A stretch of 55,123 bases of DNA, taken from positions 1 through 55,123 of the IMG/VR virus record IMGVR_UViG_3300032737_000190. One strand, written 5' to 3'. The position numbers and the translations under genes were made by a program. The notes under the pieces were generated by a model. That model saw only the letters and a list, made by a program, of their open reading frames with translations, had not been told where the DNA came from and ran no database searches. Each line of letters starts with the position of its first letter. Positions within the stretch are counted from its first letter, which is position 1. Origin of the DNA: a virus. This document shows positions 5,336 to 55,123 of this stretch, piece after piece.

Positions 5336-5383
5336 GACAACTCTTGACAACTCTTGACACCTTTTGTGTGATATACAATCACA
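5336..5383. promoter_or_regulatory. Direct repeats plus perfect palindrome between the HEPN gene and cassette A
   Basis: The 10-mer GACAACTCTT occurs twice in tandem (5336-5345, 5346-5355) and a third copy begins at 5356. The tandem copies create two TTGACA hexamers. A perfect inverted repeat TGTGAT-N5-ATCACA follows at 5367-5383. This looks like an operator controlling the leftward HEPN gene, the rightward cassette, or both. Confidence 0.4.
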
Positions 5384-5504
5384 GGATTCAGAAACATGCG
5401 CAATGCGTTTTAGTTGAATGGAGAAATTGCCGAGGTTAATGTGTTTTTGACTCGCAAGAGTCCACACATGGATCTGGAGAGTCATCCCATATCTATCTAG
5501 CAGG

Positions 5505-5520
5505 TGCCGCGCAAGCGGCA
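5505..5520. other. Perfect stem-loop with GCAA tetraloop upstream of cassette A
   Basis: TGCCGC-GCAA-GCGGCA forms a 6-bp stem closed by a GNRA tetraloop, about 100 bases before the first cassette ATG. It may be a leader-RNA structure. No T-tract follows, so it is not a normal terminator. Confidence 0.35.
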
Positions 5521-5620
5521 TAACAAAGTATTCCACCACCGACTGCGCCCTCGACTAACAGATTCAATAAGAGGAACCGCAGACGGACACGGACTGCTTT
5601 TATTTCCTGTTACCACTTTC

Positions 5621-9626: not shown

Positions 9627-9643
9627 AGCGTTACAAGACTGGA

Positions 9644-9669
9644 TACCAGAGCATTTCGGTGCTCTGGTA
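9644..9669 (+). other. 10-bp perfect hairpin after the terminase gene
   Basis: The arm TACCAGAGCA (9644-9653) pairs perfectly with TGCTCTGGTA (9660-9669) around the loop TTTCGG. It lies 18 bases after the terminase stop and before the recombinase. There is no strong T-tract, so it could be a weak terminator, an mRNA-stabilising structure or part of a recombination site. Confidence 0.5.
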
Positions 9670-9688
9670 GCTCTATTAAAGGGCAAGT

Positions 9689-9756
9689 GGGCTGGCTCTC
9701 GCACCGGCTCTCTGGCATTGCTTGTAGGTGCATTCAGCACTTTCCCCCTATAACCA
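9689..9756 (+). other. Conserved leader before serine recombinase A, candidate att or control site
   Basis: This stretch aligns almost without gaps to 47108-47174 before recombinase B: 68 versus 67 bases to the ATG. Shared blocks include GCTGGCTC, GGCAT and TTGTAGGT. The region before it, between the genes, is not similarly conserved. Large serine recombinases often have their attachment site directly beside the gene, so this is an att candidate. A shared 5' regulatory leader is the alternative. Confidence 0.4.
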
Positions 9757-16362: not shown

Positions 16363-16504
16363 ATTCCTTAATTAAATTGTAATAAGCACACCACTCACAA
16401 CCCTCATCACTCTTCGGAATCTTTTTTGCACACAAACACTTGTGAGCGTCAACGATAGCATCCTCTATCCAATTGGGAGATAACATTAGAAGTGTGAGCA
16501 TCAT
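16355..16504 (-). CDS. 49-residue Cys-motif protein filling the gap between Res and STAND genes
   Basis: An ATG (ATGATG at 16504/16501) sits 2 bases after the Res stop, and the frame ends by overlapping the STAND start by 8 bases, so it fits the gap exactly. The product ends with CLCAKKIPKSDEGCEWCAYY. This resembles the PxxxxxCxxCxY C-terminal tail of RecB/Cas4-type PD-(D/E)XK nucleases, but no nuclease domain is present. It may be a small partner protein or a remnant. Its tight coupling on both sides argues that it is translated. Confidence 0.55.
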   Translation of the reverse strand: MMLTLLMLSPNWIEDAIVDAHKCLCAKKIPKSDEGCEWCAYYNLIKEYE

Positions 16505-16506
16505 AA

Positions 16507-20815: not shown

Positions 20816-20822
20816 AGATTTA

Positions 20823-23765: not shown

Positions 23766-23835
23766 GTTTGGAGTATAACGTATGCAATGAATTAGTGATA
23801 AGTAAAAGCATTTAACTTACTAAATATTGACGTGA

Positions 23836-25296: not shown

Positions 25297-25320
25297 TGTG
25301 TCTAGTGTAGTGAATTATCC

Positions 25321-26415
25321 CTATATCTCAGAGAAGTTCTTCTGACTAATTTCAGTAACCATTGTCTCAAAAACAGAGAGAAGCCCCTGAATATCTTTCG
25401 TCGAGAAGTCATTAAGGCGAATTTCGTAGTACGTAGCATCAAACTTATCTCGTATGAGTGATGGTACAGTCTTCACGAACAGATCGGCATACTTCTTTCG
25501 TAGTTCAGGATTATTCTTCCAGAATTCAGGAATGAGATTCCATCGACCCGGAGTATTAGCGAAGAAGATAGTTTTTCTAATGCCATCTTTGTACTTTGCT
25601 TTAAGTTTGAAGGAATTTGTTCCGTACTCGATCGCATCAGATCCACACTTTGTAGCAAAGTCGTAAATCACACGCATCTTTCTACAAGTTTCCTCATCAC
25701 TCTCCTTGTTGAGCTCTACGAAGAACGATTCCTCGTCCCAAACGCGAGATGCCAGACGTGTACTTGCAACAGAAACGTCTTTCTTCACTTCTGTTCCAAA
25801 AAGTCTGGGGATCATAATTTCATAGCTTTCAAATTTGTAGTATTCAATCTCGGCAATGTAGATGTTAAATTTACTGTATTGGTTGAGGAAGAGTATTAGA
25901 TCTTTTAATTGAGAATGGAGATTGTCCATAAGGACGACGAATTTAAAGGTGCCTTCATCCAAGTTTCTTCTATAGCTTTCAAGGATGGTCTGTACTTCAT
26001 CATCAGATATCTCGAAGAACTCTTGTAGCTTCTGCTGTACGCTCATATTCCATTTCTTCTGCGTCTGACGCTCTATTTCATTTAGGAACTGTACGAAGTC
26101 GTTATAATGCCTCCAGAGAGATGCTCCGTAATCGAGAACTTGAGCTACGACATGGCGCTTATCAGAGTTTCGGTAGAGTTTTGTTTCAATGAGGTACAAT
26201 TCACCATCTTTGTCGATACCGACAGCATCTATAGGACCACTTTGTGTTGGAAACTCCCTAGCAATGATCAGGAGACGGATATCCTCTTTAATATCGTAGA
26301 GAGGAATGGAATCTGGATTATCGTAAATGTACTGTTGGAGTTCGTCTTCACTATTAAAAACAGAGCTATCGATGCGTTTCGCATCTTTGCCGTTTTTGGA
26401 TATTATGAGTGTCAT
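25321..26415 (-). CDS. PD-(D/E)XK nuclease-like protein
   Basis: Near the N-terminus a PD-(D/E)XK signature is clear: GPIDAVGID, then GELYLIETKLYRN, giving Asp63, Glu77 and Lys79. An 'AQVLDYGASL' helix follows, as seen in NucS/DUF91-type or DUF4268-like predicted nucleases. The remaining 250 residues are unassigned. I chose the ATG at 26415. The frame is open further upstream, but that stretch reads as low-complexity non-coding sequence and overlaps the divergent promoter region. A DNA-cleaving accessory defence protein is plausible; no methyltransferase is directly paired with it. Confidence 0.65.
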   Translation of the reverse strand: MTLIISKNGKDAKRIDSSVFNSEDELQQYIYDNPDSIPLYDIKEDIRLLIIAREFPTQSGPIDAVGIDKDGELYLIETKLYRNSDKRHVVAQVLDYGASLWRHYNDFVQFLNEIERQTQKKWNMSVQQKLQEFFEISDDEVQTILESYRRNLDEGTFKFVVLMDNLHSQLKDLILFLNQYSKFNIYIAEIEYYKFESYEIMIPRLFGTEVKKDVSVASTRLASRVWDEESFFVELNKESDEETCRKMRVIYDFATKCGSDAIEYGTNSFKLKAKYKDGIRKTIFFANTPGRWNLIPEFWKNNPELRKKYADLFVKTVPSLIRDKFDATYYEIRLNDFSTKDIQGLLSVFETMVTEISQKNFSEI

Positions 26416-26436
26416 GTAAGCATTGTGAGCATATAT

Positions 26437-26520
26437 TATTAGAATGAAAGTATTACAATTTGCACACCAACTGTAAAGTAGGTGTAAAATACTTTGGCCA
26501 ATCCCGATACTCTTTGGGAT
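26437..26520. promoter_or_regulatory. Divergent promoter/operator region before the XRE regulator
   Basis: The block AAAGTATTAC (about 26446) is mirrored by GTAAAATACTTT (about 26484). ATCCC (26501-26505) pairs with GGGAT (26516-26520), overlapping the XRE start codon. TTGCAC (26459) and TAAAAT (26484) are possible but widely spaced promoter hexamers. An autoregulatory operator is likely. Confidence 0.35.
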
Positions 26521-26728
26521 GGGTATAATCACAAAGACAGTATCGAAGAATTTAAAGCAGTTACGTGAGAAGCGTGGCCTCACTCAAGAGGAGGCAGCTG
26601 ATTTGTGCAATATGGAGTACAAACAGTACCAGCGTTATGAGAGCAATAAGCTTAAGGATATGCGCATGAGTACAATTGAGAAGATTGCGAAAGGTTTTGA
26701 TGTAGATCCATCTGAGTTGCTGATGTGA
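26519..26728 (+). CDS. XRE-family helix-turn-helix regulator
   Basis: This 69-residue protein is essentially one Cro/C1-type HTH domain: LKQLREKRGLTQEEAADLCNMEYKQYQRYES followed by TIEKIAKGFDVDPSELL. These are the five helices of the fold, with the recognition helix around MEYKQYQRYE. There is no extra effector domain. It probably controls itself and the divergent nuclease gene through the inverted repeats that overlap its start. Confidence 0.85.
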   Translation: MGIITKTVSKNLKQLREKRGLTQEEAADLCNMEYKQYQRYESNKLKDMRMSTIEKIAKGFDVDPSELLM

Positions 26729-38878: not shown

Positions 38879-40606
38879 TTAAGTTTTCAATTCTCTCTTA
38901 AATGCTTCCATTAGCGTACTCTTTCTTGTCTCAAAGAAATCCGGAAAATCCTCGTATTCTAAGGATATGCCATCTGGAATATAATGCTTTCGAAAGTAAT
39001 CTCTGCGACTTAGATCGTCAGGGCATTTTTCGGTAAGCCAATCCTTAAATGGCTTATTTGATTTTTCTTCATTTGGGATATCCTCAAGTAGTTGAAGATT
39101 CGGCAAGTAATCAACGTTTTCCAAATATTCTGAATGCCTATCAGGATCAATGCCTTCCGCCTTAAGTGATCGCTTATTAAACTTACTGCGCGGATGCATA
39201 TGATCAATATGAAACTTATTTCGGTAATCCAATGTTGGGTACAGCATAGAAAGAACCGAGAAGGTATGCCCTTTCCCATATTTTGAGTAGAGAAGATTTT
39301 CGATATCATCATCTGAAGAGATGAAGCTCTTCGGCGTTCCTTTAAATTTCTTAACAATTGAATCAAACGGAAACTTCGAGTGTTCTTTTTGTAATAGATT
39401 ACGCAGAGGTGTGAGTACATTATCTGGCTGTCCGCTGAAGATACGCTTGATGAGAGCAATAATCAGCCACTTACGAATAAACTTTCGATCTTCTAAATAT
39501 TCCCCAGATTGTACAAACGAAGAAGGATTACCTTTTTGCAAAATATAATAAGCAATGGGTATAAGTGCATTATTGGAAGTGAGTGTCGATTGATTATAGC
39601 CATATGATGCAACGAGTTCTGTTGTGAGTCGTAATGCCTTTTTGATGTCATCCCATTTTCCTTCTATCTTATGCATATTGCTGCGATTAAAGTTATCTAC
39701 TTTAAATCCGATATCTTTAATATCAGCCAATACCAGACTTGCTTTAAGGACAAAATCTTTATTGAAAGCAAATCCATCACCGGTTGCATTTAGATCGTCT
39801 ACAAATTCGGTAATCTCTTCTCTTGCATTTCCTTCCCACTGAGCTGTAGCAATAGAAAGGAGAAGATCGGAATAGCTAAGAACCGTCCCTCCGCTGTTAA
39901 CTCGGATAAAAATATTAAGTACCTTGTCCAAATCTTGATCATGCTCCTGAAAGAAATTTATTAACTGCTTTTCAGTAATAACTTCAAATAGTTGAAATAA
40001 ACACTCTTCAGCGAACTGACTTTCAAGCAGCTCCTTCTCTCTTAGATATCCATTTACATCTCGCAGACTGCTAAATGTAAGTATTTTTACAACTTCGAAC
40101 CAATGTGTATTTTCGTCGCTTGCTTCTGCTTCGTCTTCAGTCAGAAACTGAAAATCATACTTGAGATCGTAATCCTTTGAATTACTCAGTAGGTTCAGAT
40201 ACAACTTTCTTTTGGGATACGCATTGTCATTGCTACGAGAATAATATGGAAGCTTATTAGCGTATGTCCCTTTAAGTCCAATATACAAAGATGAAAGTCG
40301 TTGCTGGCCATCCAAGATTGCAGTTACAGCCTCATCACCAATAACATTTGCTCTAGTATTATGAGGATTATCCCGTTCATGATAGTTACGAATAAACTCG
40401 TAAAACTGGTAATTCTCTACGTTTTCTCGATCCACTTTCCAAAATAAGAAGGAACCGATTGGGTAGCCACGCATAATGGAATCAAACAACTTTGAAATTT
40501 GATCCGTCTTCCAAACAAACTCTCGTTGTATTGCGGGCAGAAGATACTTCTTGGCATGTACTTGCTCAATAACTTCCTTTATTGATATTGGTAGTTCAAA
40601 TGGCAT
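38879..40606 (-). CDS. GmrSD-type DUF262/DUF1524 restriction endonuclease
   Basis: The N-terminal DUF262 part has the LPAIQREFVWKTDQISKLFDSI opening and the DGQQR motif (residues 99-103) of the GmrS-like NTPase/nuclease domain. The C-terminal part has the HNH signature FHIDHMHPRSKFN (about residues 462-474) of DUF1524. GmrSD enzymes are type IV systems that cut DNA with modified, often glucosylated, bases. A single fused protein of 575 residues is normal. No methyltransferase is needed or paired. Confidence 0.85.
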   Translation of the reverse strand: MPFELPISIKEVIEQVHAKKYLLPAIQREFVWKTDQISKLFDSIMRGYPIGSFLFWKVDRENVENYQFYEFIRNYHERDNPHNTRANVIGDEAVTAILDGQQRLSSLYIGLKGTYANKLPYYSRSNDNAYPKRKLYLNLLSNSKDYDLKYDFQFLTEDEAEASDENTHWFEVVKILTFSSLRDVNGYLREKELLESQFAEECLFQLFEVITEKQLINFFQEHDQDLDKVLNIFIRVNSGGTVLSYSDLLLSIATAQWEGNAREEITEFVDDLNATGDGFAFNKDFVLKASLVLADIKDIGFKVDNFNRSNMHKIEGKWDDIKKALRLTTELVASYGYNQSTLTSNNALIPIAYYILQKGNPSSFVQSGEYLEDRKFIRKWLIIALIKRIFSGQPDNVLTPLRNLLQKEHSKFPFDSIVKKFKGTPKSFISSDDDIENLLYSKYGKGHTFSVLSMLYPTLDYRNKFHIDHMHPRSKFNKRSLKAEGIDPDRHSEYLENVDYLPNLQLLEDIPNEEKSNKPFKDWLTEKCPDDLSRRDYFRKHYIPDGISLEYEDFPDFFETRKSTLMEAFKRELKT

Positions 40607-40634
40607 ATGCCATATAGCATAAGCTATTCTTAGC

Positions 40635-42095
40635 TTAAAGAGAATCCAAGATATGAAAAATCTCCACCATTGCGAGCGTGTCCAGTTCGCAATACTTCCG
40701 CATATGGCTACAAGTTTCTATTTTCTCTTGTTCACTTCTACCATCCGTCAGCATTCGATACCATGATAGTGATGCTGTACCACCTTCCTGAATCTCCAGG
40801 TCTTTGTACGAAAGTTCTGGCACGAGTACTGGTAGTACATCCTTAATCGAACAGCTGCCACGGAAATCAGGATGGACGTAGAGCTGCTTCCGAAAAATTT
40901 CCATCAGATCATACACACGTTCATTGATGCTCAGTAGAAACGGAGCATGAGCTGGCACAAGCTCAGCAATCTCTTTGTTGCGACTCATCTCAAAGCTCTT
41001 ATTCCACACGATGACACTACCATCGCTATCTATGTCTCCAGACAATCGCTGTGCCAGTGTTTCTGCAGGATTTTCCAGTGCATCAGCTAAGTATTCGTAG
41101 TGTTCCACTTCTGCATCTGGTTCGCGCAAAACATGCAGTGAATACTGGAAGACCATCTGCTGGTACGGTTTGTAGCCATCAAAAAGAGGAATCGCTGGAA
41201 AGAATGTTTCATAATCGAGGAAGTACAGTGGATATTCTAGTTTGGATAGCTCCTTTTTAATGTCCTTAGTCTCAATAATCGGCTTTCCGTCTCGTGCAGC
41301 TTGAACCTGACACACCTGTGCCGTGGAGAGTGAGTATTCCTGAGGTAAGTCCGTGATTGCACGGATGCCAGCTTCGTAGAGTTCTTGTGCTTTTGTAGTG
41401 CGAATGCGGCTGAGGTTAAAGACGGAGTAGTCAGGCAAGTCAGGGTAGCAATAATGAAGGCATGGGCAGTCTTTCGCGCTACAAGTACAAGTGACATCAG
41501 TACGAGTGGGTGTATCTTTTCGTTCTATGAGTTCGAGAGCCTTTTGCACTTGCGCTTCCACTTGCAACTCGACTTCGTTTACCTGATCGGTAATTTCTCC
41601 CACAGTGATGAACTCCTGCGGATCAATGTCTCCATGTTTCACAAAATCCTTGTTTACATGGGCAAGGAAGAGCTTTCCGATATCGTATCCTGCCTTGCGA
41701 AACGCTAAACGCTGGAAACAAACATCGTGGATGTGATCTTTTTTAACTTCGGTAGAACCTTTCACCTCGATGATATTCCAAAGATCGCCGTCTTTCTGCA
41801 GAACGTCTGCCATCGCCAGTAATCCCTCAGCTATTGCAGTTGCCTGATAGATGAGATTTTTACCATCAGCCGCCAGCTCCTGCGTTTTCTTCGCTCCTGC
41901 ATCATGGAACGCTTTAACATGTGCACCGCCTGGATAGAGTTTTCGGGCTACGTCCTCCACCATGTTTCCTTGTTCCAGAATCCACTGCACTTGTGCATCG
42001 TCCTCGCTCCCCTCTATATCAGTACGGCGGTTTTTCCAGAGCCAAAGATGGATCGGGCATTCGAGGTAACGAAGAAATTCTGACTTGGTGAGCAT
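40635..42095 (-). CDS. DUF2779 protein: Cas4-like Fe-S nuclease fused to DnaQ-like exonuclease, island B copy
   Basis: It is a paralogue of 23836-25296 with identical length (486). Present are MLTKSEFLRYLECPIHLWLW with its N-terminal Cys, WNIIEVKGSTEVKKDH, the Cys cluster CTCSAKDCPCLHYC, and the exonuclease part FLDYETF with CELDTLAMVEI. Both nuclease sites therefore look intact. It follows the GmrSD gene's start with a 28-base gap on the same strand, so it may share the transcript. Presence in both islands suggests it belongs to the element, not to one defence system. Confidence 0.75.
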   Translation of the reverse strand: MLTKSEFLRYLECPIHLWLWKNRRTDIEGSEDDAQVQWILEQGNMVEDVARKLYPGGAHVKAFHDAGAKKTQELAADGKNLIYQATAIAEGLLAMADVLQKDGDLWNIIEVKGSTEVKKDHIHDVCFQRLAFRKAGYDIGKLFLAHVNKDFVKHGDIDPQEFITVGEITDQVNEVELQVEAQVQKALELIERKDTPTRTDVTCTCSAKDCPCLHYCYPDLPDYSVFNLSRIRTTKAQELYEAGIRAITDLPQEYSLSTAQVCQVQAARDGKPIIETKDIKKELSKLEYPLYFLDYETFFPAIPLFDGYKPYQQMVFQYSLHVLREPDAEVEHYEYLADALENPAETLAQRLSGDIDSDGSVIVWNKSFEMSRNKEIAELVPAHAPFLLSINERVYDLMEIFRKQLYVHPDFRGSCSIKDVLPVLVPELSYKDLEIQEGGTASLSWYRMLTDGRSEQEKIETCSHMRKYCELDTLAMVEIFHILDSL

Positions 42096-43028: not shown

Positions 43029-43183
43029 AGACTATTTAGTAATCACAATGCGTATTTGCAAGGTGAGATATTTCGCTTTATGACAGTAAGAATCAGCGGC
43101 TACTAAAAATTACTACAGCTCAGTCGTTGCAAAGAAAGCATCGTTCGTCGCATTCAATAGACACTCATTTCTTTGTAAATCTT

Positions 43184-44473
43184 ATGACTGATCCACTCCA
43201 AATCCACACAGTCGCAATCAGCGACCTCAACCCTGCTCCATATAACCCACGTAAGTGGGGTACTAAACAGGAGAAAGACCTGATCGAAAGCATCAAACGC
43301 TTTGGGTTCGTCGATCCGCTGATCGTCAACGGAGCGGATGAACGACTAAATGTAGTCATCGGGGGGCACTTCCGACTGCACATCGCTCGTAAACTGGGCA
43401 TGACTGAAGTGCCAGTGGTATACATATCGATTCCAGAAATTGAAAAGGAGAAAGAGCTAAACTTGAGATTGAACCGTAACCTCGGGAGCTGGGATTTTGA
43501 AATGCTTAAAGAGTTCGATGTCAGTCAGCTTATAGATGTAGGTTTTGAAGACGCTGATCTTAGTAATATCTGGGACGATGCACTGGAAGCCGATGATGAT
43601 GGATTTAACACAGAGGAAGCACTTGAGGAGATCAAAGAGCCTACGACGAAGCTGGGTGACTACTACGCACTTGGCAACAGTCGTCTGTACTGTGGTGATG
43701 CCACAATTTCAGAGGTAGTGGCAATTCTCACGCAAGGCCATACGCCCTCCATGTTGTACTGCGATCCGCCCTATAATATTGGGCTTTCGTATAACTCAGG
43801 AATCGGAGGCAAGAAAAATTACGGAGGGTCGACCAACGACAACAAAACCGATGATGAGTACCGTACATTTCTGCAGGCTACGATCCGAAACGGACTCAAG
43901 TACTCAACTGATGACATTCATGTTTTCTACTGGTGCGACTCCAACGCCATAGGACTTGTGCAGAACCTCTACCGAGAGGAAAGCGTAACACCACGCCGAG
44001 TAGCACTGTGGGTAAAGAACAATGCCAACATCACACCGCAGATTGCCTTTAGTAAAGTGCATGAACCCTGCGTCTATGGCACTCGTGGTACGCCGTACTT
44101 GTCAGATCGCATGCAGCAATTGACCGAAGTGTTAAACAAGGAAGTTGGCACAGGAAACCGTTGCATCGAAGACGTTATGGATATTTTAGATATATGGCTG
44201 GAACGGCGACTGCCGACCGAGCAATACCGTCATCCCACGGAAAAACCTCCGACCCTGCACGAGAAGCCGCTACGACGTTGCACAAAGCCCGGTGACACCG
44301 TTCTCGACTTATTTGGTGGCTCGGGTAGCACCCTAATTGCGTGCGAGCAGATGAAGCGCATTGCGCTCCTCTGTGAAATTGAACCTGTCTTTTGTGATCT
44401 TATCCTTCTTCGTTATGAGCAAATCACTGGAAACAAACCAGTTCAGCTCGCTTGCGGTTGGCAGCGTAGTTGA
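43184..44473 (+). CDS. ParB-domain DNA methyltransferase, island B copy
   Basis: ParB-like domain at about residues 10-85 (PAPYNPRKW, FVDPLIVN, VVIGGHFR) is followed by a methyltransferase domain with canonical DPPYN (194-198) and DLFGGSGST near the C-terminus. The matching linker LNLRLNRN and the GIGGKKNYGG segment show it is the counterpart of the 5621-6934 product. Unlike that copy, its catalytic motifs are standard, so it is likely active. The ATG at 43184 is preferred to a TTG/GTG-type start at 43127. Confidence 0.85.
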   Translation: MTDPLQIHTVAISDLNPAPYNPRKWGTKQEKDLIESIKRFGFVDPLIVNGADERLNVVIGGHFRLHIARKLGMTEVPVVYISIPEIEKEKELNLRLNRNLGSWDFEMLKEFDVSQLIDVGFEDADLSNIWDDALEADDDGFNTEEALEEIKEPTTKLGDYYALGNSRLYCGDATISEVVAILTQGHTPSMLYCDPPYNIGLSYNSGIGGKKNYGGSTNDNKTDDEYRTFLQATIRNGLKYSTDDIHVFYWCDSNAIGLVQNLYREESVTPRRVALWVKNNANITPQIAFSKVHEPCVYGTRGTPYLSDRMQQLTEVLNKEVGTGNRCIEDVMDILDIWLERRLPTEQYRHPTEKPPTLHEKPLRRCTKPGDTVLDLFGGSGSTLIACEQMKRIALLCEIEPVFCDLILLRYEQITGNKPVQLACGWQRS

Positions 44474-45209
44474 ACTTGGACACCATCGGCTCTTGGTTGG
44501 CGATTGTCTCGATACGGCTCTCGTCGCTCAGTTTCTCCACGGCGAGCAGATCGACCTTCTACTAACAGATCCTCCGTATGGCATCGCCTATGTGGAAGGC
44601 AAAACAGCATTCACTGGAAACGTATCGCATAAACCGATTGCCAATGATGGCGAGCAGAGCGAAGCGCAGTACCGTCGATTTACTCGTGACTGGCTGTTTG
44701 CCTCAAAACCGTTCTACACCAAAAAGAATGCTGCGTACATTTTCCACGCTGACCGCATGCTCTTTGCATTACGTGGTGGCATGGAAGATGCAGGGTGGAA
44801 GTTCGGGCAAATGCTTATCTGGCTCAAGACTGCAGCGGTCATTGGTCGACTTGATTACTTACCTCAGCACGAACTCGTCGCCTACGGCTGGTGCGGAACA
44901 CATTTATTTCGACGCAGTAAGGACAAGAGCCTTCTCATTCATCCACGGCCAAGCAAAAGCAAGCTACATCCGACGATGAAACCTGTGGGGCTACTACGAA
45001 GATTGATTCTGAACAGCACAAGTACTGGGGCAACTGTGTACGACCCATTCGGTGGCTCTGGCTCAACACTAATTGCCTGCGAACAAACGAAACGACGCTG
45101 TCTGATGGTGGAACTTGACCCGAAGTACTGCAAAGTGATTGCGAAGCGTTACGAAAAACTCACTGGCACCACTCCTGTTATCCGCTCCCCCTTACCCCAT
45201 GCCCGCTAA
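44415..45209 (+). CDS. Site-specific DNA methyltransferase (N4-C/N6-A type), island B copy
   Basis: The protein has DPPYG at residues 52-56 and DPFGGSGST near 210, with the shared LIW(V/L)KTAAVIGRLDY-PQHEL block found also in the island A copy. The order of motifs marks a beta-class amino-methyltransferase. The ATG at 44415 gives a 59-base overlap with the ParB-methyltransferase gene, longer than the 4 bases in cassette A, but no later good start is present. It is probably coupled with its neighbour. Confidence 0.85.
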   Translation: MSKSLETNQFSSLAVGSVVELGHHRLLVGDCLDTALVAQFLHGEQIDLLLTDPPYGIAYVEGKTAFTGNVSHKPIANDGEQSEAQYRRFTRDWLFASKPFYTKKNAAYIFHADRMLFALRGGMEDAGWKFGQMLIWLKTAAVIGRLDYLPQHELVAYGWCGTHLFRRSKDKSLLIHPRPSKSKLHPTMKPVGLLRRLILNSTSTGATVYDPFGGSGSTLIACEQTKRRCLMVELDPKYCKVIAKRYEKLTGTTPVIRSPLPHAR

Positions 45210-45654
45210 ACGCACACGTAAATCATCTGCTTCTGTACAAGCCAGAAAGTCACAAGAGCAGGAGCAATTGCTAATGCAGCTCAAGAAAACACCAGTCATC
45301 CAGATTGCCTGTGAAAAAACAGGTGTAAGCAGGGCATCGTACTACCGCTGGCGAAAGGAAGATGAAGAGTTTTCCTATGACTGCGATAAGGCACTTAGTG
45401 AAGGCAAACAACTCGTGAACGACCTTGCTGAATCACAACTGCTGGCAGCCATTCGTGACGGACACATGACGGCCATTATTTATTGGCTCAAGCACCATCA
45501 TAAAGACTATGAAACCCGTGTTGCCGTAACAGCCACGGTCAAACAGCAGGATGAACTCACGCCCGAACAGGAGGCCACTGTGAAGCAAGCACTAACCCTT
45601 GGACAACTATTACCCCCAGCATCTGATGATGGAACTGAACCCAATGTTGACTGA
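45199..45654 (+). CDS. Small HTH protein, terminase small subunit-like, island B copy
   Basis: The N-terminus is Lys/Arg-rich (PAKRTRKSSASVQARK), followed by the HTH segment TPVIQIACEKTGVSRASYYRWRKE and LAESQLLAAIRDGHMTAIIYWLK. The acidic tail LTPEQEATVKQAL matches the island A copy. It overlaps the methyltransferase by 11 bases and the terminase by 29. A DNA-recognition role for the neighbouring terminase is the simplest reading. Confidence 0.7.
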   Translation: MPAKRTRKSSASVQARKSQEQEQLLMQLKKTPVIQIACEKTGVSRASYYRWRKEDEEFSYDCDKALSEGKQLVNDLAESQLLAAIRDGHMTAIIYWLKHHHKDYETRVAVTATVKQQDELTPEQEATVKQALTLGQLLPPASDDGTEPNVD

Positions 45655-47089
45655 ACGGTTGATTAAAGATGCTGCTGTACGGCGACAAGTTACGAAGGAG
45701 AGTCACCTGTGGTTCTTTCATCTCTACTTCTCGCACTACGTGCAGTACGAAATTGCACCGTTTCATCGAGAGATGTTTAAAACAACCGAAGATCCAGAAG
45801 CAAAGACATCGGTGATTCTTGCCTTTAGAGGTTCTGCAAAGTCAACCATCATCAGTATGTCGTACCCGATCTGGGCGATTCTCGGCAAGCTAGAGAAGAA
45901 ATTTGTATTGATCCTTGGTCTAACCCAACATCAGGCTCGCCAGCACCTTAAGAACATCAAGGACGAGCTGGAACGTAACCAACTACTTCGGAATGACCTT
46001 GGACCATTTGAAGAACGTGAGGAGTGGAATGCCTACAGTCTCGTCATACCAAAGTATGGAGCAAAGATTATGGCGGTATCAACCGACCAGTCAGTACGAG
46101 GATTACGACATGGACCACACCGCCCCGATCTTATTATCTGCGATGACATCGAAGACTTGGTGTCTGTAAAAACCAAAGAGAGTAGAGATAAGGTTGATGC
46201 CTTTGTCTCTGGTGAAGTAATACCTGCTGGAGATAGAAACACGAAAGTGGTCTTCGTTGGAAACCTCCTTCATGAAGACTCACTGCTTATGCGACTGAAA
46301 GATCGTATCGAAGCGGATGAACTAGAGGGTACATTCCAGCGTTATCCACTACTGGATGAAAATGACGTACCTCTGTGGCCAGGAAAATTTCCAAGTACGC
46401 AGTACATTGAAAAAGAAAAGAAGCGTGTTGGTGATGAGTCGTCGTGGCACCGAGAATATTTGCTGACAATCCTCTCCACGGCAGAACGTGTCATACGACC
46501 AGAGTGGATACAGTTTTACGACGAACATCCGACTATTCAGCAGGACGGATACTTCTGTACTGCGATTGGCATCGATCTGGCAATTTCTCTTCGTGATAGT
46601 GCTGATTATACGGCTATGGTGGCTGCCCGCATCTTCCATGAAAACGGTGTGCGTAAAATCTATATACTACCTAATCCGATCAACGAGAGACTGACTTCAC
46701 TGGAGACATTGGATCGTGCGAAACAAATGGCTGATATTCTTGATAAGAAGAGCAAGACACGCATTTTTATCGAAGATGTCGGGTACCAAGGCTCATTGGT
46801 TGAACATCTGAAGGAAGCCAGTTACAAAGCGGAGGGGGTGAAGCTGAAGGGATCAGATAAGCGGAGTCGTCTGGCACTGGCAGCAAGAGCTGTGCAGGAC
46901 GGCACAGTGGTATTTCCGAGGCACGGCTGCGAAGATCTCATAAACCAAATGGTGAATTTTGGGATCGAAAAGCACGACGATTTAGCGGATGCATTTTCAA
47001 TGCTTGTGCTGCAGGCAACCAGTATCAAGCGAAGACGTGCGATGTTTGTGACATTAGATGACAGCTGGCTCTATAAGTCGTCTTTTTGA
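45626..47089 (+). CDS. Phage-type terminase large subunit, island B copy
   Basis: Walker A FRGSAKST (about residues 66-73; the Gly-to-Ala change inside the P-loop is unusual but tolerated in some terminases) and Walker B LIICDDIED are followed by nuclease-domain acids GIDLAIS, FIEDVGYQ and KHDDLADAF. The protein aligns along its length with the island A terminase, including LPNP-NERLTSLET. Both catalytic domains appear preserved. No portal or capsid gene accompanies it. Confidence 0.85.
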   Translation: MMELNPMLTERLIKDAAVRRQVTKESHLWFFHLYFSHYVQYEIAPFHREMFKTTEDPEAKTSVILAFRGSAKSTIISMSYPIWAILGKLEKKFVLILGLTQHQARQHLKNIKDELERNQLLRNDLGPFEEREEWNAYSLVIPKYGAKIMAVSTDQSVRGLRHGPHRPDLIICDDIEDLVSVKTKESRDKVDAFVSGEVIPAGDRNTKVVFVGNLLHEDSLLMRLKDRIEADELEGTFQRYPLLDENDVPLWPGKFPSTQYIEKEKKRVGDESSWHREYLLTILSTAERVIRPEWIQFYDEHPTIQQDGYFCTAIGIDLAISLRDSADYTAMVAARIFHENGVRKIYILPNPINERLTSLETLDRAKQMADILDKKSKTRIFIEDVGYQGSLVEHLKEASYKAEGVKLKGSDKRSRLALAARAVQDGTVVFPRHGCEDLINQMVNFGIEKHDDLADAFSMLVLQATSIKRRRAMFVTLDDSWLYKSSF

Positions 47090-47107
47090 AGCTATTTATA
47101 GGCATTA

Positions 47108-47174
47108 GAGCTGGCTCTTGCAACACCTATCCGGCATCAATTGTAGGTAGATTTAACCATTCACCCACATTTCT
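47108..47174 (+). other. Conserved leader before serine recombinase B, candidate att or control site
   Basis: This is the counterpart of 9689-9756, with matching blocks GCTGGCTC, GGCAT and TTGTAGGT at equal spacing to the recombinase ATG. It fills the gap between the terminase and recombinase genes. Confidence 0.4.
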
Positions 47175-48506
47175 ATGCCGACAGCAGTCGCACCACCACT
47201 GGCGCAAACAGACACGCAAATACCAATAGAAAACAAGCCTCTTCGCTATTGCCTTTACGCTCGTAAATCGAGCGAAGAAGACGAGCGACAAGCTCTTTCC
47301 ATCGACTCGCAGATACAAGAAATGACAGAATTAGCGAAGCGTGATGGTGCAGAAATCGAAGAGATACTAAAAGAAAGCCATTCTGCAAAAGCGTCTGGGA
47401 ATAGGCCAGTTTATCAGAAGATGCTACAACTTATTGAAGAGGATGAATTCGATGCAATACTGACATGGGCACCTGATCGACTCAGTAGAAATGCTGGCGA
47501 TCTCGGTACACTTGTGGATTTGATGGATCGAGGCAAATTGAAATGCATCCGTACCCATGGGCAGACCTTCACCAATAACCCTAACGAGAAGTTCCTACTC
47601 ATGATTCTCTGCTCGCAGGCAAAGCTGGAAAATGACAACAGGGGTATCAATGTGAAGCGAGGCCTAAAGACCAGAGCACAGATGGGATACCGTCCCTGCA
47701 TGGCACCGCTTGGTTACCTTCATGAACGACTAGCAGGTGCAACACAAAGTCGAATAGTGGTAGATCAAGAGCGTGGTGAAGCGATTGGAGAAATGTTTGA
47801 GCTTGTTGCGTACAAGGGTGCAAGTGGAAGGAAATTAGCCGAATGGCTTTACAATGAGAAAGGAATACGAACTCGCAAAGGCAAGAAGATTACTCTCAGC
47901 ATGATTTATAGGATGCTACATAATCCCTTCTATACTGGAAGGTTTGCATGGAACGGTGTGATGCAAGATGGAGACTATGAACCACTGGTGACAAAAGAGT
48001 TGTTTGATGAAGTGCAAAAGCTACTAGATATGAATAAGGCACACGACAAAGCGTGGGGCACAAAGGACTTTGCCTTCGTACGGATGATGACCTGCGGTTC
48101 TTGCAGCTCAGGTGTGACTGCGGAGGAAAAGTTCAAGAAGCTGAAGAACGGTACCGTGAAACGATATGTCTACTACCGCTGTACCCATGCCAAAGACCTC
48201 AAGTGCAAGGAGAAAGCGATTCGAGAAGACAATCTGATCGAGGAGCTACTCGGCCTAATCGAGAAGTTGGATCTGGATACGTCAAGTGTGCGAAAGAAGC
48301 TGCAAGATGAGATGGATCGGTATGCAAAATTCTCAGACGTTCTTGGAATAGATGTAGAGATGCAAAAGAAATTACGTGAGATTGACGGCCTGAAGTATGC
48401 TGAATACATCCTTCGGGAAGGAGGGAGTGAAGAGAAACGGAGTTTGCTGGAGAGTATTAAAAGCAAAATATTCCTACATGGAACTAGGATTACTTTAGAA
48501 AACTAA
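47175..48506 (+). CDS. Large serine recombinase, island B copy
   Basis: The catalytic YARKSSEEDERQALSIDSQ places the nucleophile at Ser32, followed by TWAPDRLSRN, the Recombinase domain and a four-Cys zinc ribbon (TCGSCSSG with YYRCTH and LKCKE). The C-terminal helical part matches recombinase A (KFSDVLGIDVE, KYAEYILREG). Full-length and intact. Its stop lies 2 bases from the stop of the convergent SF1 helicase gene. Confidence 0.9.
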   Translation: MPTAVAPPLAQTDTQIPIENKPLRYCLYARKSSEEDERQALSIDSQIQEMTELAKRDGAEIEEILKESHSAKASGNRPVYQKMLQLIEEDEFDAILTWAPDRLSRNAGDLGTLVDLMDRGKLKCIRTHGQTFTNNPNEKFLLMILCSQAKLENDNRGINVKRGLKTRAQMGYRPCMAPLGYLHERLAGATQSRIVVDQERGEAIGEMFELVAYKGASGRKLAEWLYNEKGIRTRKGKKITLSMIYRMLHNPFYTGRFAWNGVMQDGDYEPLVTKELFDEVQKLLDMNKAHDKAWGTKDFAFVRMMTCGSCSSGVTAEEKFKKLKNGTVKRYVYYRCTHAKDLKCKEKAIREDNLIEELLGLIEKLDLDTSSVRKKLQDEMDRYAKFSDVLGIDVEMQKKLREIDGLKYAEYILREGGSEEKRSLLESIKSKIFLHGTRITLEN

Positions 48507-48508
48507 AG

Positions 48509-51500
48509 TTAGGTATTTTGTCTTGTGCCTTTGCAATAGGGAAATCGTTTACACCCATAAAACTCGCCGTATCTACCTTTCCTCAAAACCATCTGAGATG
48601 CGCATTTAGGACACTGTTTATCAACAAGAATAACAGGTTTTGGTTGTCTAGCGCTACGACTGGCAGAAGGCATAGCTTTGCAACTTCTGCAAATTCTGCC
48701 GTATCCCGAAACTAAACGCGTGTCTTGGAAATCTACGCTGTTCTTAATATCTTTACACTTCGGACACTCTTTCATATCGCCGTTTTCAAGTCCTTCTACT
48801 GTTTGGTGAATGTTGCTTAACAAAGCATCCATATCTCTCTCACCTACAGAAATTAACTTCTTAATTCTGGTATCAAGAGTCTCCACAGGATCATCTCCCA
48901 TTGTGAATTTATTAATACGCAAAAATTTATACCCATAGCTTTCTAGTACCTTCTCTCGATACAGGTCTTGCTCTCCGTAGTATTCACCAATGTTGAATTC
49001 ATTAATCTGTTCCTTTGATCCAAAATGTTCATCGAAGCCATCATATTCAATAACAATACTGTGATTTTTTCCTCTGTCGTCTTTGAATACTAATAAGAAA
49101 TCAACTTTGTAATTTGGATGATTGTAATTCGTATCTAGTTGTTTTAGATACTTACCAAGCTCAAATTGAGGGTTAAACTCAATTTGCACTTTGTGCTCTT
49201 TCCAAAAATCTGTCTGATAGAACCAGTGCAATACCTTAGCTTCCATCGGAGAGTTGGGGTCAACATCGTCTGCTGTTTTTTCTTGCTTACCTTCTTCAAT
49301 AGCATTTGCATAATGACGTAGTGCTTCACCAATAGAACCGTTAAATTCTTTAATCTCTTTGCTTAGCACGAAGTGCATACACTCCTTTGCACGACTAAAT
49401 CCAACATTGAGGCGTTGCGCCTTAATAGTTCCTTGTTCCTCTAAATCTTGTTTGCTGAGGTCTGATATGAAAACTCCATATAGCCTGTCCGATTCTTCAG
49501 TAGCAACCATTGGGTAATAAATGATGTCTCTCTCTTCACCTTGGCAAGTATCGAACGTCATGATTTTTAGCTTTAGCTCAGCAAAGAACCAATCAGAATC
49601 AGAGTGCTTACTAATTTTTTCGACTAAACGTTTCTGTTGATTTGTATGAGGTGTAATGATTCCAACACTCGATTTAGATTGCATCTTTTTCAAATTCTCT
49701 AGCTCAGAAATCACAAAATTTATTTCTAGCATATTTGTATTCGGCACTGTCTCAGCTTTTCCATCATGCTCCAAGACAGTAAATTTTAACACATCATTGA
49801 TAGATTTAGCCCGAATTTTCATAACCTCTAAAGATTCTTGATAGAAATATTTATTGGAGTACCCAATGTTTTCTTTGTATCCCCTAAAATGTTTCTTTAG
49901 CTGAATATTAAAGTTATTAATAAATTCAAAGAAATCCAAAATAGATGTTTTGATATTGAACTTGTTCAGCTTTTCGAGCTTCACTTTGTCTTTTGAAATC
50001 GTCTCTGTAAAGACTTTCTTAAGATTGGCAATGTACTCCCTGTTTGTGTCAGTTCTCGCATGTGATGCTTTTACATTGCTGAACTGTTTTCTATCTCCCA
50101 GAATCAAAACCTTTTTAGCACGCAATAAGGCAGGGAAAGCTTGGGCAATACTTACCTGTGAAGCCTCATCAATAATTACTAAATCAAAGATATCTGGCTC
50201 CAATGGTATATATTCTGCATAGTCTCGAATGCCAGCCAGAATACAAGGAAATGCTTTTTTTAGCTTATTAAACTCATCCTTTGGGAATCTCTGTTTTTTC
50301 TGAATGAGGGTCTTGATGGTCTTAGCAGTAGCCGTGTTGTTGTAGTAAAATTTGATAAGCTTTGCATCCATCAAGTATGTCATTTGAGCTGTGACCAGGT
50401 CTTCTATATTTGATTTATCATTTACATAATCTACTTGTCCCAACTTACTGAATCCGTCCGTAATTTTCTGATGTAAAGTAATGTAGCGCACAATCTTAGC
50501 AAGGTCTTCTTCCTCCAGTTCAACCAAATCATTATCCAGTATTTGAGCTAAAGAATCGCTTTGGATTCCAAGAAGTTTATAAGTCTTTGGATAATCAGCA
50601 TCTTTGTCTTCAATAAATCGCAGGTCATCCAGAGAACTAACCATTTCTGCAAATGCTTCTCCAATACCTTTATCAGACATGACACCTTGTACACCTTTTA
50701 AATAATTCATCTTTTTGGCGATAGGCGCTGCAACTTCCTTATGTAAAGAATCTAGATGCTTCAATACCTCTGCTGTACGACTAATTTCTTTTAAATGTTT
50801 ATGTGGCTTAGGTTCTGTATAACCAACGTCTCGCTTGAACTCAGAGTCTATTTTGAATACAGCTTCCTTCTGGAATAAGAATCCAAAGACAGGATTACGT
50901 ACCTCTTCGTACCGTGTTAAGTAGCTCTCAATCTTTGCAATTGTGCCATCATCTAACTTGCTCAATTTTGCGATTGCTTCTGTGTAAGTACCATATGCAT
51001 CAGTGACTTGCCCAATGTGTTTCTTTACTTCCTCAAGTACACTATAAAAGGCATGGTAATCCTCTAAACTGGAAAAATCATTAACGGAAATACTGAATGC
51101 ATCTAATAAGTATTGACCGTGAGTATGTGTTTGCTTGTCATCTTCATGGAACATCGAACGGAGTTTTACGAGTGCATCTCGTATTTCCTGCAAATCAATA
51201 GCAGCACCTTGCTTAGAAAGCAGCTCTTGCAAGTCAACCATTGAAGCGTTCTGCTCTACAAAAGGCTGTAATTCATGCAGTTCAATTATTTCCTTCAAAT
51301 CTATTTCCGCTGCGGTGCATGTTTCAGCTTCGACATCTTCTTTGAGAGTATCTAGTCGTTTCTGTACGGCTTCATCAATACCTCCATGCTCTTTCTTTAC
51401 TGCCCTGTAGTGATTTCTGATTCTATCAATGGATGTAGTGGAGAGTATTTTTGCATACGTACTCCCTGCCTTTCCTAGGCGTAAGATAGGATTTTGAAAA

Positions 51501-53089
51501 TCTTTATCGTGCCTTACTTTATCCATTGAGCTTGTAATTTTGTCTTCAACGACATCCAGAGCTTCTTTTTTATCTGAAAGAACCAATACCGATTGGTCGT
51601 TTAAAATCGCATCACAAACAATGGCTGTAATAGTATGACTTTTCCCTGTTCCTGGTGGACCCTCGACTGTGATGTAGTTACAACCATCCTTTTTAATTGC
51701 ACTAAGAATCTGTCTTTGTTCGCTGTTTAATGGCACAGGTGTGGGGTATACCAACTTATCTCCAATGCTCTGCTCATCCCATTCATTATCAATCTTTTCA
51801 TGAAAAGATAATGGTTCGTTAAATATGAAGTTATCAATCAACCTATTGAATATCTCGCTAAGAGGATTGTCTTCTGAATCTAATAGTCCAAGAATATCCT
51901 CATAATCGTTAACTAACGCCTCATCTGATTTATCAAATAGGGACACATTGCATGCATTAGTAGTACGAACCCAGAGACTTTTAGCAATTTGATTATCTTG
52001 CTCTAAGACATTAAAACTTGAATCCAGTTCAAAGAAATTCGTTATCTCAGAAAGAATTTGATCTAAGATCGTATGTAGATTCTCACCATGCTCAGCTAAA
52101 TAAATAATTCTTTCGGTTATAGATTTGAGACTTCCTCGCTTGCCCTTCTCAATATTGTATTCCTGAACAATAAATTCAAGCGCTTTTTTGTTTATGTACA
52201 GTTGAGAATCAAATTCTATATTGAGTGTGTCTTTATCTCGATTGATAGTGAAGGGAATATAAAAAAGAGGGTATCTCGATTTACGGAAAGAAATATCATA
52301 GAAGTAAAAATAAAACTCCTGTTTGTCTAAAATCAACCTATTTCTATCCATTTCGAATATCTCACTAAATAAGTCAGTGACTCTAAAAGCATCAAAGAAA
52401 TCAAAAATACTTACTTTTACAGCATCTTCCTCAAATACCTCTTTTAACTGTTTTTCTATATTCATCTCTTGGTTGCTAACAATGTAATTTACAATTTGCA
52501 TACACCTATTTTCAATAAGAGATAGTAGGATAGTTGTTAGCTCTTCTTCCATAAGATAAATACTGTTCTCATCACCTAAATCTAAATTTTCTAAAGGTTT
52601 TTCTATGCTCCCTATGAAAGGATTAATTAGTTCCTCTCGAAGGATACTTGCACATGATTCCAATGCAATAGACTGTGCTTTATCTACCTCTTTCTTGTGT
52701 TGAACAGCAGCATCTTCAACTGCTTCCGATAATCGTTTTAGTACTTGATTAATTTGCTTCTTGGATATTCTGCCTACCTGCAACTCAATAAGGTCAAGCA
52801 AGCCAGTTGGAATTGAGGTTTTGTAGACACCTCTTTCAATCTTTAGAGAGCTATCAGGAAATCCTTTAGCCAAGGTTTTACGAATAATATTCTGAAAATC
52901 TGGATACTTATTGAGGCTTAAGCCAATAAGCAAATTATCCTTGTTCCTTGATTGCACTGAACGCTTGGGGTTTCTTCTTTTATGAAAATCTGTTTCTAAA
53001 AAATCCATGAAGTACTTCGCTACTTCTTTAATAAATTTATGAGATTTATTCTGATTTGCGGCCACAGGATTTGTCTCTTTCTTGCTCAT
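48509..53089 (-). CDS. Giant SF1 helicase-nuclease with zinc ribbon, putative defence protein
   Basis: This 1526-residue protein has an unassigned N-terminal 450 residues, then an SF1 (Upf1-like) helicase split by a long helical insertion: GPPGTGKS (477-484), IIDEASQ with GDRKQFSNV, TFDTCQGEERDIIYYP and RLNVGFSRAKECM. After it comes a small nuclease domain of the Vsr/MTES_1575 kind (IVIEYDGFDEHF ... YREKVLESYGYKFLRIN). The end carries CPKCKD and a topoisomerase-type zinc ribbon (CPKCASQMVLRKGRYGEFYGC). Large helicase-nucleases like this are common in defence islands; target unknown. Confidence 0.8.
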   Translation of the reverse strand: MSKKETNPVAANQNKSHKFIKEVAKYFMDFLETDFHKRRNPKRSVQSRNKDNLLIGLSLNKYPDFQNIIRKTLAKGFPDSSLKIERGVYKTSIPTGLLDLIELQVGRISKKQINQVLKRLSEAVEDAAVQHKKEVDKAQSIALESCASILREELINPFIGSIEKPLENLDLGDENSIYLMEEELTTILLSLIENRCMQIVNYIVSNQEMNIEKQLKEVFEEDAVKVSIFDFFDAFRVTDLFSEIFEMDRNRLILDKQEFYFYFYDISFRKSRYPLFYIPFTINRDKDTLNIEFDSQLYINKKALEFIVQEYNIEKGKRGSLKSITERIIYLAEHGENLHTILDQILSEITNFFELDSSFNVLEQDNQIAKSLWVRTTNACNVSLFDKSDEALVNDYEDILGLLDSEDNPLSEIFNRLIDNFIFNEPLSFHEKIDNEWDEQSIGDKLVYPTPVPLNSEQRQILSAIKKDGCNYITVEGPPGTGKSHTITAIVCDAILNDQSVLVLSDKKEALDVVEDKITSSMDKVRHDKDFQNPILRLGKAGSTYAKILSTTSIDRIRNHYRAVKKEHGGIDEAVQKRLDTLKEDVEAETCTAAEIDLKEIIELHELQPFVEQNASMVDLQELLSKQGAAIDLQEIRDALVKLRSMFHEDDKQTHTHGQYLLDAFSISVNDFSSLEDYHAFYSVLEEVKKHIGQVTDAYGTYTEAIAKLSKLDDGTIAKIESYLTRYEEVRNPVFGFLFQKEAVFKIDSEFKRDVGYTEPKPHKHLKEISRTAEVLKHLDSLHKEVAAPIAKKMNYLKGVQGVMSDKGIGEAFAEMVSSLDDLRFIEDKDADYPKTYKLLGIQSDSLAQILDNDLVELEEEDLAKIVRYITLHQKITDGFSKLGQVDYVNDKSNIEDLVTAQMTYLMDAKLIKFYYNNTATAKTIKTLIQKKQRFPKDEFNKLKKAFPCILAGIRDYAEYIPLEPDIFDLVIIDEASQVSIAQAFPALLRAKKVLILGDRKQFSNVKASHARTDTNREYIANLKKVFTETISKDKVKLEKLNKFNIKTSILDFFEFINNFNIQLKKHFRGYKENIGYSNKYFYQESLEVMKIRAKSINDVLKFTVLEHDGKAETVPNTNMLEINFVISELENLKKMQSKSSVGIITPHTNQQKRLVEKISKHSDSDWFFAELKLKIMTFDTCQGEERDIIYYPMVATEESDRLYGVFISDLSKQDLEEQGTIKAQRLNVGFSRAKECMHFVLSKEIKEFNGSIGEALRHYANAIEEGKQEKTADDVDPNSPMEAKVLHWFYQTDFWKEHKVQIEFNPQFELGKYLKQLDTNYNHPNYKVDFLLVFKDDRGKNHSIVIEYDGFDEHFGSKEQINEFNIGEYYGEQDLYREKVLESYGYKFLRINKFTMGDDPVETLDTRIKKLISVGERDMDALLSNIHQTVEGLENGDMKECPKCKDIKNSVDFQDTRLVSGYGRICRSCKAMPSASRSARQPKPVILVDKQCPKCASQMVLRKGRYGEFYGCKRFPYCKGTRQNT

Positions 53090-53187
53090 ATTGCACTATA
53101 TTGTATAGGTTAAGGCTCCATTCTTAAAGAAAATAACTCTTGCTTAGCTAATCTGACAAGGGATGATAGATATTAAAAGAACCAACG

Positions 53188-54291
53188 CTATTCCTTCATC
53201 CAGAACCAGTAGTGATTGAGAAGTTTGGAGCGAAGCCTGTAGGTGTTGGCATGGGAGAGAACACCAAGATACGAATGCAGAGATTGCTCAACACTTTCAG
53301 CGGTTTCCGATCCTGTTTTATGCATAGATACCCTCTCATGAAACTTGCGAAACATACGATTCTTTGTGCGCGTGCGAAGCATTCGATGGTGAGGCAGGAG
53401 TACATATCCGAGATAATCTATGCCCTGCGTAAACTTACGAATTGTGACCTTACGTGGATGCAGATCAAGGGAAAGTTCTTGTTGAAGGAATGATCCAATA
53501 GTCTTAATAAGAGATTGTAGGTACAGACTATCTGAAGATACGATCACAAAATCGTCAGTGTATCGAACGTAGTGACATATTTTCAATTCATGCTTCATAA
53601 ATTGATCTAAGGCGTTGAGGTACACGTTTGCAAAGAGCTGTGAAGTTAAATTGCCAATAGGAATGCCAGACTGCGAAACACTTCCAAATTGTGGAGCAGT
53701 AAAGCTATCGATAATTTCATCCATCAACCGAAGTACATCCTTATCACGGATGCGTTTTGTGATTTGGGATTTTAGGATTGGGTGCGACACTGAATCGAAA
53801 AATTTGTTGATATCACACTGCAGAGCAAAACAGGTACGGCTATTATTTCTGCTTTCTCTTCGCAACATCTGTTCCAGTGCATCTACTGCTTTATGTGTAC
53901 CCTTACCCTTTCTACAAGAGAAAGAATGAGCAATAAACGTCGGTTCGAAAATCGGATTGAGAACAGAGAATACAGCATGGTGAACGATACGATCACGAAC
54001 AGATGCTTTGTGAATATGACGCTGCTTTGGATCACAAATTGTAAAGGCACTATACGGTTGATGTTTATAAGTGCCGCTCGAAAGTTCCCTGTGTAATTGA
54101 AAAAGATTCTGTTCCAGTTTCCGCTCGAACTCCTGTACATCTATCCGCGCCTGTTTGCCTTTACGAAATTCCTCCCATGCAACAAAGAGATTTTCAGTGG
54201 AGATGATCCGCTCGTAAAGATGGCAATAAACACGCACAAAGGCATTGTAGTCGCTCATTCTCTTAAAATCGATCATTGACAGTATCGTCAT
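53188..54291 (-). CDS. Diversity-generating retroelement (DGR) reverse transcriptase
   Basis: The frame reads DINKFFDSVSH (motif A acids), then SGIPIGNLTSQLFANVYLN. Its IGNLTSQ follows the [ILV]GxxxSQ signature that separates DGR reverse transcriptases from group II intron (QGxxxSP) enzymes. The catalytic YTDDF comes next, then DLHPRKVTI and a thumb-like end. In DGRs this enzyme copies a template repeat with adenine errors that are written into a target gene. Start is uncertain: ATG at 54291 chosen, 54276 and 54258 possible, and the frame is open to a TTG at 54405. It is divergent from the putative target gene. Confidence 0.85.
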   Translation of the reverse strand: MTILSMIDFKRMSDYNAFVRVYCHLYERIISTENLFVAWEEFRKGKQARIDVQEFERKLEQNLFQLHRELSSGTYKHQPYSAFTICDPKQRHIHKASVRDRIVHHAVFSVLNPIFEPTFIAHSFSCRKGKGTHKAVDALEQMLRRESRNNSRTCFALQCDINKFFDSVSHPILKSQITKRIRDKDVLRLMDEIIDSFTAPQFGSVSQSGIPIGNLTSQLFANVYLNALDQFMKHELKICHYVRYTDDFVIVSSDSLYLQSLIKTIGSFLQQELSLDLHPRKVTIRKFTQGIDYLGYVLLPHHRMLRTRTKNRMFRKFHERVSMHKTGSETAESVEQSLHSYLGVLSHANTYRLRSKLLNHYWFWMKE

Positions 54292-54467
54292 TTGGTTATA
54301 TTGTATATTAAGATGCTCTTTTAGATCATCGTCAAGATTCAGGTAAAGAGACAAGCGCTCTGTGTATTTATTTGTGCATAGGGTGCTTGTCTCATTTTCG
54401 AGCAAGTCCGAGCCGACGGTACAATCGGTAATACTTGTATGCCCTTAATAGGGTAAAGGAGATTTTC

Positions 54468-55123
54468 ATGAAGACCGCAACAAGTTTGACAGGTCTGCCG
54501 CAGAAGAAGGTCACCACTGGTCTCAAGCGGCTCCAAGAGGCTGGTATCACACCAGAGCGATGGCTAACCATGCTTGACGCTGACTCTGCAGAAATGCAGC
54601 GTCTAGCAGACGCGTGGCCAGTGCGACTGCCGTCCTTCACCTACGATGCCGTGGCAATCCTCGGTTTCGGAGAAGCAAGTACGGAGCCGCTCCCAGAACC
54701 CGCACCTGGCGAGATCATTATCCGCGTCGGAGACTGGTCTCTGCAAGATCTGCGTGACTGTGAGGTCGGCAAGGAGCTGATGCACCAGCAGGATTGGTAC
54801 GACAAGTACGACTGCGCAAGTGCGAAGCTGACAGCAGGCATCTACCGCATGCGCCTGCCCGTGCCAGACAGCAACCGCAAGAACTTCGCCGAACAGAAGG
54901 AACTTCTCCTTTCTGGCGAAGAGGTCGCTCCTGTCGCACTCGGCGCTTCCGCCCTCCTCGATCATCTGAAGGAGACCGGAAACGATCTCCTAAAGAACGA
55001 TTGGTGTCGTTGCGAAGAGCCGCGCCCCGTTGACAGCCTCGTCGGTCTCGATATCGGCGAGTGTCGCGTGAGCGTCAGCAGCAACTGGGATGGCGGTCGG
55101 CATGACAGCGTGTGGTTGTCGGC
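54468..55123 (+). CDS. Putative DGR target (variable) protein, runs off the right edge
   Basis: An ATG at 54468 follows a good AAAGGAG ribosome site, and 218 codons are open to the window end. Residues 1-60 look helical (LTGLPQKKVTTGLKRLQEAGITPERW); the middle is mixed. The visible C-terminal part reads GECRVSVSSNWDGGRHDSVWLS. In many DGR targets the C-terminal variable region of the lectin-like fold has such Ser/Gly/Asn/Asp/His/Arg positions around fixed Trp and Val. The gene is clearly richer in G+C than its neighbours. Identification rests on adjacency to the RT and this pattern; no known family is recognised for the N-terminus. Confidence 0.6.
   Translation, partial: MKTATSLTGLPQKKVTTGLKRLQEAGITPERWLTMLDADSAEMQRLADAWPVRLPSFTYDAVAILGFGEASTEPLPEPAPGEIIIRVGDWSLQDLRDCEVGKELMHQQDWYDKYDCASAKLTAGIYRMRLPVPDSNRKNFAEQKELLLSGEEVAPVALGASALLDHLKETGNDLLKNDWCRCEEPRPVDSLVGLDIGECRVSVSSNWDGGRHDSVWLS

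Follow-up and report, generated by a model that had tools for sequence, protein, structure and literature searches.

The right end of the window, the window being the whole 55,123-base IMG/VR record that was analyzed here, very probably represents the left half of a diversity-generating retroelement (DGR) from a Peribacteria-like Patescibacterium, one in which the block of target, template repeat (TR) and Avd is inverted relative to the reverse transcriptase (RT). A DGR at this edge was the original prediction and it holds, i.e., the RT goes with DGR enzymes, an orthologous cassette (L009) possesses pairs of TR and variable repeat (VR), and the window VR diverges at adenine sites. The features found at this end are as follows:

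53188..54258, minus strand (open frame to TTG 54405): DGR-type reverse transcriptase (Pfam, PHROG, alignment, tree)
53551..53562, minus strand: YTDD catalytic motif (RT sequence)
53638..53658, minus strand: IGNLTSQ motif, i.e., the DGR 'SQ' motif (RT sequence)
54259..54467, no strand: divergent intergenic region, with a promoter-like site inside
54468..55123, plus strand: target gene of the DGR, truncated at the contig end (frame, L009 orthologue, profile, predicted fold)
55020..55123, plus strand: VR, incomplete at the contig end (differs from the orthologous TR/VR mainly at TR-adenine sites)

The Reverse Transcriptase

The RT open frame (53188-54405, minus strand) comprises 405 codons as counted from TTG. 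The true start is probably instead ATG 54258 or GTG 54237, as it is at that place that the orthologous L009 RT begins. The protein matches Pfam RVT_1 (E=2e-22) as well as PHROG 1423, 'Reverse transcriptase' (E=4e-124), and is 86% identical to the L009 RT. Its identity to eight aligned DGR-type RTs, the best relatives from phage and plasmid collections and including BPP-1 Brt, is 33-41%. The best solved chain by sequence is a reverse transcriptase, 8ub7 (3e-47), which we take to be the BPP-1 enzyme, with group II intron RTs at 1e-27. Single-protein scans of viral contigs with the window RT gave no relatives. IGNLTSQ and YTDD had been put forward as signatures to be expected of DGR enzymes. Both indeed are present, and the SQ motif of DGR RTs is discussed in PMC3521204, but among DGRs the YTDD spelling is less common than YMDD, which most reference rows of the RT alignment display. 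Close relatives within the window RT lineage have YTDD in common.

An RT tree placing this protein among other RT classes had been named in advance as counting against a DGR. In the resulting tree of 56 rows, where the other RT classes are represented by group II introns, these introns stand apart from DGR RTs at 100/100, and the window RT sits with the latter. There the Patescibacteria rows, the window, and four similar viral-contig rows make up one side of a 100/100 branch, with the window RT grouping with Peribacteria/Peregrinibacteria RTs (support 100/97). That the enzyme might be that of a group II intron, a retron, or a DRT/abortive-infection system, with its neighbor an unrelated gene, is exceedingly improbable. 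Generic group II, DRT and retron profiles do give matches, but all of those from NCBIfam are far below cut-offs (175 bits versus 300 for the group II intron profile), and profile scores argue against a retron or abortive-infection identity. Such a reading is refuted, furthermore, by the adenine-specific TR-VR pairs of the orthologous cassette, which also has Avd.

An Orthologous Cassette

L009 (JAHIYH010000045.1, a Patescibacteria MAG) was found by scanning one genome per species. Positions 53187-55123 of the window align to it at 85%, with the match ending at the RT stop codon. Its cassette consists of:

3173-3520, plus strand: Avd (Pfam bAvd)
3566-3689, minus strand: TR (TR-VR comparison)
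4088-4834, minus strand: target 2
5233-5907, minus strand: target 1
6156-7205, plus strand: RT

The Avd scores 57.9 bits with Pfam bAvd (cut-off 40) and 70.9 with the NCBIfam Avd profile, just under the cut-off of 80. As a strong terminator-like hairpin follows each L009 target, and as a 7-bp stem with T6, seen by eye, follows the TR, the TR RNA probably would be a separate transcript.

Two further cassettes resemble L009, L217 in having the same order with but one target, and L218 in its RT-target layout. Their RTs (4770-5702 and 6001-6831, respectively) carry in-frame deletions, that of L218 spanning the catalytic core and removing both IGNLTSQ and YxDD. The flipped layout therefore may tend to decay.

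A separate observation concerns the tandem target units of L009 (3844-6147), which share 108 nt of identical 5' flank and, on the 3' side, a stretch of 300 nt that is 95% identical. As the flanks thus are nearly identical while the encoded proteins are only 46% identical, this suggests duplication with target exchange between the shared flanks.

Adenine-Specific Rewriting

A near-repeat of the target 3' end that differs from it at adenines had been proposed as a check. No TR was found in the whole 55-kb window, on either strand, with the contig ending inside of the VR, but one with adenine-specific mismatches is present in L009. As the L009 cassette holds a TR, its absence from the window does not refute a DGR, and the window's own TR most likely would lie beyond the contig end. 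Within L009, 16 of the 19 differences between TR and VR1 are at A (p 1e-8), as are 21/25 between TR and VR2 (p 9e-12).

The VR sites of the window can be classed as adenine or other by reference to the L009 TR. Agreement between the window VR and L009 VR1 is then 8/28 at TR-adenine sites versus 67/75 at other VR sites (Fisher p=4e-9), with 462 of 528 sites the same outside of the VR. Given the two orthologous TRs, those of L009 and L217, the window VR is mismatched at 14/26 shared A and at 3/50 shared non-A positions, and where these TRs differ in their non-A bases it matches one or the other of them in 20 cases out of 20. With mismatches concentrated in this manner at TR-adenine sites, the window VR has been rewritten at adenine positions following the split of these lineages.

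From a different perspective, the window might possess only the remnants of a dead DGR, i.e., target and RT remnants along with a VR that has diverged through ordinary drift or selection. The damaged RTs of L217 and L218, which have the same RT-target layout, are in keeping with this, as are those several genomes of the order that have targets and no detected RT. The window RT nevertheless has its full length and retains both IGNLTSQ and YTDD, and the clustering of VR differences at TR-adenine sites is not explained by drift, though it could be by past activity. A dead DGR is therefore unlikely. The window cassette would presumably still be active.

As observed in passing, the L009 TR (L009:3566-3689) contains an in-frame TGA, the A of which is mutated in both VRs; an unmutated copy of this TR would truncate the target. 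A stem that closes the TR by way of its flanks (GGGAA ... TTCCT) is predicted by RNAalifold within the order, mostly with invariant pairs and little covariation. As a general feature this stem was rejected, the longest flank helix averaging 7.9 versus 7.8 when shuffled (64 Patescibacteria loci).

The Target Gene

The existence of a well-initiated gene on the opposite strand was borne out, with ATG 54468 found behind AAAGGAG and the frame running off the contig. So too was its unlike base composition (GC of 59% versus 41% in the RT). The gap of sixty-odd bases that had been described between the two genes is correct as measured from the RT open frame (62 bases), but is approximately 210-230 bp from the probable RT start, given that this is at ATG 54258 or GTG 54237. 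Within the intergenic region a promoter-like site (54276-54304, plus strand; consensus match only) faces the target. The C-terminal pattern, which had been seen as typical of a variable region, likewise is supported, both by the TR-VR pairs of the L009 orthologue and by the divergence of the window VR at adenine sites.

The N-terminal part, described previously as unfamiliar, remains so, having no match in Pfam, PHROGs, NCBIfam or PADLOC, in which indeed the target as a whole has no sequence family match. Nor are there relatives of the target in single-protein scans of viral contigs, and against PDB sequences matches are at chance level only. Residues 1-55 match nothing in sequence searches and are modeled as low-confidence helices in the L009 orthologue. 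It was upon that orthologue, 83% identical to the window target, that the fold was predicted (24-row alignment, mean pLDDT 86).

The fold predicted for the last approximately 150 residues of the target is C-type-lectin/FGE, as in known DGR targets, with the match spanning residues ~75-224 of the L009 model. Similarities are to the Bd2740 C-terminal domain (Z 9.6), to TvpA of Treponema denticola (2y3c; Z 9.4, rmsd 3.0 over 133 residues), and to PvdO (Z 9.2). This assignment rests on VIA-align (Z 8-9.6), with Foldseek returning nothing at E<=0.001 (best 0.016). The likeness to TvpA, a variable protein, thus is one of predicted C-type-lectin/FGE-type fold in the C-terminal part, at 13% identity, with the target's N-terminal part unrelated or unrecognized. 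Of 74 genomes from the order, 19 have a member of the target family, and in some of these no RT was detected. A profile ties the family to DGR targets elsewhere in the Patescibacteria for which a TR is confirmed.

Cassette Layout and Avd Orientation

In 63 of 64 relatives with a detectable TR, the TR is on the RT strand, 334-488 nt (approximately 400) upstream of the RT. L009 is the only exception, with its TR found on the opposite strand, 2.4 kb from the RT. That is, in L009 the RT is on one strand with targets, VRs and TR on the other, and in the window RT versus target and VR are opposite as well. The L009 order can be derived from the usual one by inverting the block of target, TR and Avd once with respect to the RT, and the unseen part of the window cassette would presumably be laid out in the same way. 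The divergent order had been flagged as less common than the co-directional one; this is the case among these relatives, and it agrees with Yan 2019 (PMC6642488), according to which canonical cassettes outnumber RT-inverted ones by more than 20 to 1. Misassembly as the source of the divergent order was rejected, given that the window, L009 and L217 all display it.

The Avd gene is antisense in all 80 Patescibacteria-type loci where found (76 genome loci, in the L010-L092 range, plus 4 viral contigs with Patescibacteria-like RTs), lying upstream, at most approximately 100 bp from where the matched RT begins. This places it in the interval from TR to RT, with Avd and RT arranged almost head-to-head. 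In the remaining viral-contig DGRs that have Avd nearby, by contrast, it is sense in 71/71. No description of an antisense Avd was found in a search that had Paul 2017 and Wu 2018 outside of it, and no priority therefore is claimed.

Relation to Known Systems

The DGRs of CPR bacteria are a known cellular clade, 'DGR clade 2', with targets lacking recognizable domains (Roux et al. 2021, PMC8144416). The present cassette shares that RT clade, its cellular carriage, and a target without a domain recognizable in sequence libraries, but differs in the inversion of the RT, as seen in L009, relative to target, TR and Avd. 'Inverted' DGRs (Group 4), in turn, have been described from Shewanella, Vibrio and Photobacterium by Schillinger et al. 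(2012, PMC3521204), who concluded that there is no need for the template RNA and the RT mRNA to belong to one transcription unit. The split is the same here, i.e., the RT is on the strand opposite to that of TR, VR and target (the TR as seen in L009). RT clade and hosts differ, however, and the inversion apparently is therefore independent of that in Group 4. L009 also has two targets, plus Avd on the RT strand at the far end. The inverted layout is thus rare but already known since 2012, and the window/L009 cassette is a variant of it.

Relative to the prototype, the DGR of Bordetella phage BPP-1, the RT family (33% identity), the presence of Avd, and the adenine-specific TR-VR differences are alike. 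The BPP-1 target, avd, TR and RT all point in one direction, and in a phage, whereas in the present case the RT has been turned around, and Avd and TR have opposing orientations.

Proposed Mechanism

The RT, together with an Avd encoded off the contig, would copy the RNA of a TR located to the right of the contig end, misincorporating at adenines. The resulting cDNA would replace the 3' end of the target gene such that residues of the C-type-lectin-type domain would keep changing. With the target-TR-Avd block inverted, as in the window sublineage, RT mRNA and TR RNA would be transcribed from opposite strands, and because of this the RT presumably must meet its template RNA in trans. Points that weigh against this account as a whole are that TR and Avd of the window itself are out of view, that the L217 and L218 RTs have deletions, that the L009 TR has the in-frame TGA, and that the L009 Avd falls slightly short in NCBIfam, though it passes in Pfam.

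In the view derived from BPP-1, the template RNA consists of the TR plus the spacer before the RT. A joint reading of the present findings, offered tentatively and as somewhat short of probable, is that an antisense avd in the TR-to-RT spacer is clade-specific, its mRNA overlapping the TR-RT transcript, that the flipped target-TR-Avd unit of the window sublineage still diversifies, and that some DGRs are cargo of terminase/serine-recombinase elements without virion genes. If true, then the TR and its antisense-Avd neighbor would be a self-contained template-RNA module, served by the RT in trans. A natural opposite-strand TR/RT cassette in the large, uncultured Patescibacteria helps to separate template-RNA needs from mere gene linkage, and adds an apparently independent case to the known Vibrio/Shewanella one.

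Host and Genomic Context

The host would be a tiny, uncultured Peribacteria-like bacterium. The window contains two related modules, with restriction- and helicase-type genes around them:

5504-11130: ParB-methylase, methylase, small and large terminase, serine recombinase (first module)
43127-48506: ParB-methylase, methylase, small and large terminase, serine recombinase (second module)

The cassette could be seen as that of a phage or prophage, diversifying a virion protein, as the record is from IMG/VR, as there are these two terminase modules, and as relatives' DGRs sit in such modules. The same kind of module accompanies the DGR in G045 (two loci), G007 and G017, with the DGR in the latter two placed between terminase and recombinase. 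No capsid, portal or tail gene, however, was seen among the window frames inspected (part of all frames), the target has no relative among 50,697 phage records, the L009 cassette has ribonucleotide-reductase- and GTPase-like genes nearby, on a contig of 128 kb, and this DGR clade is reported to be cellular with few exceptions (PMC8144416). A phage origin is on balance very unlikely, and the IMG/VR label probably reflects the terminases.

Defense-type genes near the window DGR (11473-26583, 38879-42095 and 48509-53089) encode restriction- and helicase-type proteins, DUF2779 proteins, and a 1526-aa helicase whose matches to anti-phage helicases are all below cut-off. With such genes on the same contig, the target might serve as a recognition protein, perhaps a sensor. 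The target family, along with its place beside defense-type genes and terminase-recombinase modules, bears on the use that CPR bacteria make of DGRs.

In relatives (L231, L232, L233 and L234), the terminase/recombinase module carries a DGR as apparent cargo, without obvious virion genes. Canonical Peribacteria DGRs are found at L233:7693-14537, L231:9800-16654 and L232:9592-16427. In these a conserved protein of approximately 966 aa, without a Pfam match, precedes the targets, which are an AAA-ATPase of approximately 936 aa with a C-terminal variable domain, and a 340-aa target.
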